DNA from: a candidate division Zixibacteria bacterium CG_4_9_14_3_um_filter_46_8
GTDB taxonomy: Bacteria; Zixibacteria; MSB-5A5; UM-FILTER-46-8
Assembly: GCA_002791595.1 (NCBI GenBank)
Contig: PFXJ01000129.1
Coordinates: 1-37,711 of the forward strand
Direction: 5' to 3'
DNA: 37,711 nucleotides
The notes under the pieces: generated by a model
Databases searched by the model: none
The model's input: the letters and a program-made list of their open reading frames with translations, nothing else
What the model was told of the DNA's origin: nothing
Shown: positions 3,780 to 4,622 of the stretch, one piece after another
How positions within the stretch are numbered: the first letter of the stretch is position 1
Layout of the letters: each line of letters begins with the position of its first letter
Made by a program: the position numbers and the translations under genes

Positions 3780-4622
3780 ATGAGTCAATCTGAAAGGCCT
3801 CAACCCAGTCAAAAGATAAGCGGCTTGATTTCCGCATTGCGGCAAAAGAAAGGCTTATCGCAAAGAAGGCTTGCCAGTCTATCGGGAATTCCCCAAGCCA
3901 CTATCAACCGCATCGAATCTGGTGAAATAGCTAAACCGAGTCTGGAAAACATCACCCGGATAGCAGGCGCACTCGAGGTTACGGTATCCGAGCTGATGGG
4001 GGAGATTCATTCTGAAGTAAGATTATCGAGTCCTGAAAACCGTTACCCTGCAATTGCTCTGATTGAATTTAGCAGTATCGCTGCCGGCATCACCGCCGGT
4101 GATGCTATGGTCAAAAAGGCGCCTCTGGTTTTTCTCAAAGCGGGAACCGTCCATCCCGGAAAATATCTGGTTTTGGTCGGGGGCGATGTCGCTTCGGTGG
4201 AGGAATCCTATCGCGAAGGGCTAAGGATTAAGCCGGAATCCATTGTTGATGATGTCATTCTTTCTGATGTTCACCCCCAAGTTCACGATGCGATTATGGG
4301 AAAGAAAATTGCCAACCGTTTCGATGCGCTTGGGGTGATAGAAACGTCAACGGTCGCCTCGAATATCAACGCCGCCGATGCGGCAGTAAAGTGCGCGGGG
4401 GTAACGATCTTGGAAATCCGTTTGGCTGATGATTTGGGCGGGAATTCGTTCACGCTATTCGGCGGAAAGGTTGAGGACGTCGAAGCCGCTATCGAAATCG
4501 GCGTTGAGCGAATTAAGCATCGCAATATTACGATTCATACTACGGTGATACCGCGGATTGATGAGCGGATGGCGGGGGAGATAGCAAAAGCAAGCAAGTT
4601 CTTTGGAGGAGACAAAGCGTAG
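3780..4622 (+). CDS. XRE-type HTH domain fused to tandem-domain BMC shell protein (HTH-BMC-T)
   Basis: N-term ISALRQKKGLSQRRLASLSGIPQATINRIESGEIAKPSLENITRIAGALEV = XRE HTH; then two BMC domains (PAIALIEFSSIAAGITAGDAMVKKAPL... and ALGVIETSTVASNINAADAAVKCAGV...). One uninterrupted ORF. Confidence 0.88.
   Translation: MSQSERPQPSQKISGLISALRQKKGLSQRRLASLSGIPQATINRIESGEIAKPSLENITRIAGALEVTVSELMGEIHSEVRLSSPENRYPAIALIEFSSIAAGITAGDAMVKKAPLVFLKAGTVHPGKYLVLVGGDVASVEESYREGLRIKPESIVDDVILSDVHPQVHDAIMGKKIANRFDALGVIETSTVASNINAADAAVKCAGVTILEIRLADDLGGNSFTLFGGKVEDVEAAIEIGVERIKHRNITIHTTVIPRIDERMAGEIAKASKFFGGDKA

Follow-up and report, generated by a model that had tools for sequence, protein, structure and literature searches.

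An XRE-type helix-turn-helix head on a PduT-like microcompartment shell protein in a Zixibacteria SPU-type locus

Introduction

What use would the wall of a bacterial organelle have for a DNA-binding domain? The question is raised by contig PFXJ01000129.1 of a candidate division Zixibacteria genome (G000), the 37,711 nucleotides of which (positions 1 to 37,711, forward strand) are called the window here. One gene of this window joins an XRE-type helix-turn-helix (HTH) to a tandem microcompartment shell protein (BMC-T). XRE domains are typically sequence-specific regulators and normally bind palindromic operators as pairs (dimers), whereas BMC-T proteins form trimers. A shell tile with its own DNA-binding domain makes two open questions testable in one protein: how the supply of shell protein is kept in step with the building of the organelle, and what positions metabolosomes (carboxysomes aside) and passes them on at division. 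The fusion described below suggests that the organelle wall, or its unassembled parts, may touch DNA.

Architecture of the fusion protein

The coordinates and domain order given in an earlier note on this DNA, which had read 3780-4622 as an XRE HTH followed by two BMC domains, were borne out by the ORF and by Pfam, and the extent proposed there for the HTH (about residues 12-75) is close to the 9-75 found here (Table 1). The HTH_3 profile matched residues 17-72 above its cut-off (E 2.6e-15), and two BMC domains were recognized within residues 91-267 (E 6.5e-33). Both are PF00936 domains in non-permuted form within a single chain, and their fold is that of a BMC-T according to Pfam, AlphaFold2 and Foldseek. 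The NCBIfam model eut_PduT matched residues 91-265 (E 4e-29) under its curated cut-off, indicating that the BMC part is related to that equivalog and lies outside it. The best PDB sequence relative of the BMC part was PduT (3n79, E 1e-34), and those of the HTH part were phage repressors and C proteins (restriction controllers), including the 434 repressor (1per/2or1).

Table 1. Features at the fusion locus (window coordinates)
Feature	Position	Strand	Basis
IS110-family transposase fragment, contig end, adjoining BMC-P1	3..599	-	sequence match
Dispersed genomic repeat	596..722		many copies in genome
BMC-P vertex protein 1 (BMC-P1)	730..1047	+	profile matches, gene order
CorA-type Mg transporter, between BMC-P1 and ALDH	1320..2240	+	profile match
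CoA-acylating aldehyde dehydrogenase (ALDH) of microcompartment	2338..3777	+	profile matches, gene order
HTH-BMC-T fusion gene	3780..4622	+	one ORF, ATG start, 280 aa; Pfam, PDB relatives, AlphaFold2
XRE/434-Cro-type HTH, residues 9-72	3804..3995	+	Pfam HTH_3 at residues 17-72, model, fold matches
Predicted recognition helix, residues 39-47 (QATINRIES)	3894..3920	+	identical in G123
Disordered linker, residues 76-88	4005..4043	+	AlphaFold2; alignment with G123
First BMC domain, residues 91-175	4050..4304	+	H125 in the pore loop TVHPGK
Second BMC domain, residues 183-259	4326..4556	+	Pfam
BMC-P (EutN/CcmL) vertex protein 2 (BMC-P2)	4678..4962	+	profile matches
BMC-P vertex protein 3 (BMC-P3)	4959..5228	+	profile matches

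An AlphaFold2 model built with 25 related sequences had a mean pLDDT of 88.8. The BMC-T body was confident, as were five HTH helices (residues 9-24, 28-35, 39-47, 55-65 and 69-72), and linker residues 76-84 scored below 50. When the whole model was compared with the PDB by Foldseek, the top matches were the BMC-T shell proteins 3nwg, 3n79, 6n0f and 5dih; the HTH alone matched DdrO, C.BclI, C.AhdI, SinR-DNA and 434 Cro, with HppE also among the matches. The protein is a PduT-like BMC-T tandem shell domain with an N-terminal XRE head on a flexible linker, and each half is an ordinary member of a known family.

Comparison with known proteins

Structural alignments of residues 91-267 with PduT and other BMC-Ts (3n79, 3pac, 3nwg and HO-5812 5dih) gave 32-42% identity and the same tandem BMC fold. 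The locus role is also the same, and the fusion adds about 88 residues of XRE head and linker. Whereas a pore Cys of PduT binds [4Fe-4S], the fusion has H125 at that position, which places its pore outside the PduT cluster-binding type. His or Gln replaces this Cys in most SPU BMC-Ts, the fusion included. Aligned homologues with the pore Cys directly follow a PduS-like gene (L038, L039, L045-L048, L050, L051), and SPU BMC-Ts without PduS have mostly His or Gln. At the shell edge, K112 and K204 are invariant in 25 aligned BMC-T sequences; by motif they are the counterparts of the lysine that serves tiling in PduA (PMC4139245).

The nearest precedent for an HTH attached to a BMC domain of shell type is EutK, a BMC-H with a C-terminal HTH that is suggestive of nucleic-acid binding and whose function is unknown (PMC5821096). 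EutK has a single BMC-H domain and belongs to the ethanolamine system, whereas the fusion, an SPU-system BMC-T with two BMC domains and an N-terminal XRE-type HTH, falls outside the EutK definition. The fusion sets beside the unexplained HTH of EutK a head that is more clearly of the DNA-binding kind. As for the XRE/Cro-C1 repressors (434 repressor, SinR, DdrO, C.AhdI), they share with the fusion the five-helix fold and a colinear recognition helix; their partner is a dimerisation or ligand domain, whereas that of the fusion is a shell tile. No XRE-type HTH on a BMC-T protein was reported in the full-text literature searched, which mostly does not cover subscription papers. To that extent the statement of the earlier note that no characterised example was known still holds for XRE-BMC-T, although it had left the EutK precedent unnamed.

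Conservation in a second genome

The same fusion is encoded in G123 (locus L023, WJIR01000123.1, Candidatus Zixiibacteriota), directly after the ALDH gene and upstream of two BMC-P genes. G000 and G123 represent different genera of one family, and their fusion proteins share 71% identity over residues 4-275. Identity was 36% in the N-terminal tail, 65% in the HTH, 84% in helices 2-3, 93% in residues 37-50, and 84% and 76% in the first and second BMC domains, respectively, whereas the linkers differ in length and showed 0% identity in the alignment. The conservation of HTH and BMC domains on either side of such a linker indicates that both ends are under selection. In the HTH, dN was 0.34 against a dS of about 2. 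Residues 37-50 were conserved at 13 of 14 positions, compared with 28 of 48 in the remaining HTH (one-sided Fisher p 0.014, a modest test on a single sequence pair).

The recognition segment PQATINRIESGEI is identical in both proteins; the earlier note had held that loss of recognition-helix conservation in orthologues would speak against its reading, and the opposite was observed. The note had also considered an internal start near residue ~85 that would give only BMC-T. No ATG, GTG or TTG is present between codons 73 and 110 of the G000 gene, and M73 is replaced by Gln in G123, which makes it unlikely that a product without the HTH arises from an internal start shared by both genes. The fold, the second genome and the preferential conservation of the recognition segment support, at the level of sequence and model, the view that the HTH functions in DNA binding. 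Since the fusion recurs in a second genome, it is neither an assembly nor a start-codon artefact. An error of assembly, or a plain BMC-T made mainly by translation from a start within the gene, is almost certainly the wrong explanation: contigs of the related genome G121 do break exactly at the ALDH/BMC-T junction and G123 has an ATG just upstream of its BMC domain, but the two independent genomes have the fusion with different linkers and flanks, and the internal start is neither conserved nor preceded by a clear ribosome site.

Gene neighbourhood and microcompartment type

The fusion gene begins 2 nt after the ALDH stop codon. The gene order BMC-P1, ALDH, BMC-T, BMC-P2, BMC-P3 is that of plain SPU loci, the fusion occupying the position held by a plain BMC-T in relatives, and unrelated minus-strand genes lie downstream of BMC-P3. 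The SPU type is marked by RpiB and DeoC enzymes and is thought to use DNA-degradation products (PMC8217296). Loci were assigned to it by pfam01791 DeoC and pfam02502 RpiB, as in that paper, together with ALDH and the BMC-P triplet. A fused RpiB-DeoC orthologue was found in G000, G121, G123 and G113 (Pfam domains were read on the G113 protein). The full order in G113 (L043) is RpiB-DeoC fusion, permuted BMC-T, BMC-H, BMC-P1, ALDH, BMC-T, BMC-P2 and BMC-P3. The locus is an SPU-type (deoxyribose-phosphate, sugar-phosphate/DNA-breakdown) microcompartment. It has in common with the SPU loci of Sutter et al. (2021) the RpiB and DeoC domains, ALDH, BMC-P triplet and BMC-T, and differs from them in that the other SPU-like loci examined have a plain BMC-T and that rpiB-deoC of G000 lies on a contig (C68) separate from the fusion contig.

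Apart from the fusion, no BMC-domain protein, whether BMC-H or permuted BMC-T, was found in the G000 assembly (94% complete), and the shell may therefore be incomplete. A BMC-H is present in G113, G121 and G123; in G123 it is accompanied by two permuted BMC-Ts on a contig that ends just past BMC-H. The IS110 fragment at the contig start beside BMC-P1 suggests a gap or rearrangement, which may explain the absent BMC-H in G000.

The CorA gene that interrupts the operon is probably not part of the microcompartment system. The BMC-P1/ALDH junction holds CorA in G000 (window 1047-2338) and a DNA methylase plus an unknown gene in G121 (L085:1495-3134), and in G113 (L043) it is a 38 nt gap with no insertion; it is a possible insertion hot spot. 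Elsewhere in the window, positions 12992-14878 encode an AAA ATPase; it shows a weak match to a winged helix and is hit by PADLOC IetA models (E 2e-27).

Distribution and origin

Phylum-level searches and a wider sample of relatives turned up homologues of the query's BMC-T in about 113 genomes, and the HTH extension was seen in only two of them, G000 and G123. Every other SPU-like locus examined has a plain BMC-T, and 18 further named loci from other phyla have a BMC-T without HTH. No relatives were found in viral contigs. Several genomes have long open frames (up to 805 aa) at their BMC-T that were considered as further fusions; those read proved to be open by chance, and where the ALDH gene fell within the stretch read it was in a different frame.

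In G113, the nearest clear relative, the HTH is absent; BMC-T begins 3 nt after the ALDH stop and has a short N-terminal extension. In G121, which belongs to the same family, contig C71 stops 35 nt past the ALDH gene and contig C70 begins at BMC residue 104; those 35 nt contain neither an HTH nor a usual BMC-T start, and the contig break hides the remainder. The ALDH tree grouped G000 with G121 and G123, left G113 outside and made G121, with weak support, the sister of G000. This topology fits both a single gain in the family and an earlier gain followed by loss in G113, and the BMC-T tree was too weak to decide between such orders of events. The XRE-BMC-T fusion is real, rare and lineage-restricted; its function we infer.

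The plain BMC-T of G113 starts with MRLLNNDKSTSDGN (L043:8013-8055), which resembles an HTH end plus linker and could be the relic of a lost HTH.

Search for an operator

Among palindromes and k-mers common to the upstream regions of G000 and G123, only a dispersed repeat, or nothing above shuffles, was obtained, and no operator palindrome common to both genomes was found upstream of rpiB-deoC or other operon genes. The earlier note had singled out 600-730 and 2240-2340 as regions that the protein might bind. The first coincides with the repeat at 596-722, which has 16 matching stretches in the genome (itself included) and was rejected as an operator because it is not locus-specific, and no dyad of the type sought was present in 2240-2338.

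The repeat is rich in inverted repeats (GTCGGGTTC family), and a relative of it precedes BMC-P2 in G123. A strong sigma-70-like promoter, TTGACA-N17-TATGAT, lies upstream of CorA (window 1201-1229), and the 11-bp palindrome TTGACAGTCAA overlaps its -35 box.

Possible roles of the XRE head

Autoregulation of the shell operon coupled to assembly is, tentatively, the most likely use of this SPU BMC-T tile with an XRE head, at somewhat less than an even chance. A standard trimer-forming BMC-T of such a microcompartment would have gained an N-terminal XRE head on a flexible linker and would still tile into shells. With its three heads used two at a time, a free or surface-exposed trimer would bind specific DNA, flexible linkers of about 12-20 residues letting the heads pair on an operator. 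Unassembled trimers would thus occupy DNA at the shell genes and be withdrawn as shells form, so that the fusion would report the level of unassembled shell protein and adjust transcription of shell and enzyme genes.

Autoregulation was ranked first, before a chromosome tether (the other role proposed in the earlier note) and a non-DNA role, because conservation in the head is strongest at the recognition helix. It is consistent with the occurrence of the fusion in two genera of one family, the conservation of recognition segment and BMC core but not linker, the likeness of the head to repressor-DNA structures, the invariant K112 and K204, the gene order of plain SPU loci and the usual sequence specificity of XRE domains. 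It also agrees with the N-terminus of the non-permuted PduA, which lies on the concave face and faces the cytoplasm in recombinant shells, although the native orientation is disputed (PMC6109187). Against autoregulation, a common operator palindrome was not found in G000 and G123, natural examples number only two, and the shell of G000 may be incomplete. In addition, XRE domains are usually dimeric on DNA whereas the tile is trimeric, and XRE-like heads can have non-DNA roles, such as that of the enzyme HppE among the fold matches.

It is rather unlikely that the organelle is fastened to the nucleoid by the heads of its assembled shells, with these heads taking the place of a ParA/McdA-type system in its spacing and inheritance. 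The N-termini would be expected on the concave face, the outer one; the ALDH/BMC-T slot of five SPU-like loci from Chloroflexi is occupied by a gene for a receiver plus ParA/MinD-like ATPase; and BMC operons are known to carry genes for putative positioning ATPases (PMC8262871). However, a sequence-specific XRE head whose recognition helix is strongly conserved exceeds the needs of nonspecific tethering. To our knowledge, direct binding to DNA has been shown for no microcompartment, and known positioning is by ParA-type ATPases. McdAB carboxysome positioning, which links a microcompartment to the nucleoid, is a functional analogy only, a ParA-type ATPase being neither fused to nor identified beside the fusion gene. 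That shells are anchored by their heads directly at specific chromosomal sites, possibly their own operon, with ParA-independent positioning and inheritance, appears quite unlikely.

A head that has lost DNA binding and serves as a structural or protein-docking part is also unlikely. HppE, an enzyme with an XRE-like head, provides a model for it, and the failure to find an operator in the G000 and G123 upstream regions points the same way, as might the HTH of EutK, which has no known role (PMC5821096). On the other hand, conservation within the HTH is highest in the DNA-reading segment, and the disordered, unconserved linker would not be expected to allow fixed packing on the BMC body.

Finally, the BMC-T part could be the trimerising, metabolite-sensing body of a moonlighting regulator that is no longer a shell tile, which would fit the lack of BMC-H and permuted BMC-T in the G000 assembly and a pore with His/Gln instead of the PduT Cys, but is very unlikely: G123 has such shell proteins elsewhere, His/Gln pores are common in plain SPU BMC-Ts, and beside the fusion no second PduT-type BMC-T was found in its genome.

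The receiver plus ParA/MinD-like (CpaE-like) ATPase fusions of Chloroflexi (L025:8803-9912, L028:8878-9984, L030:1985-3109, L031:8801-9946 and L032:1007-2086) are candidate microcompartment positioning ATPases with a phosphorylation input.
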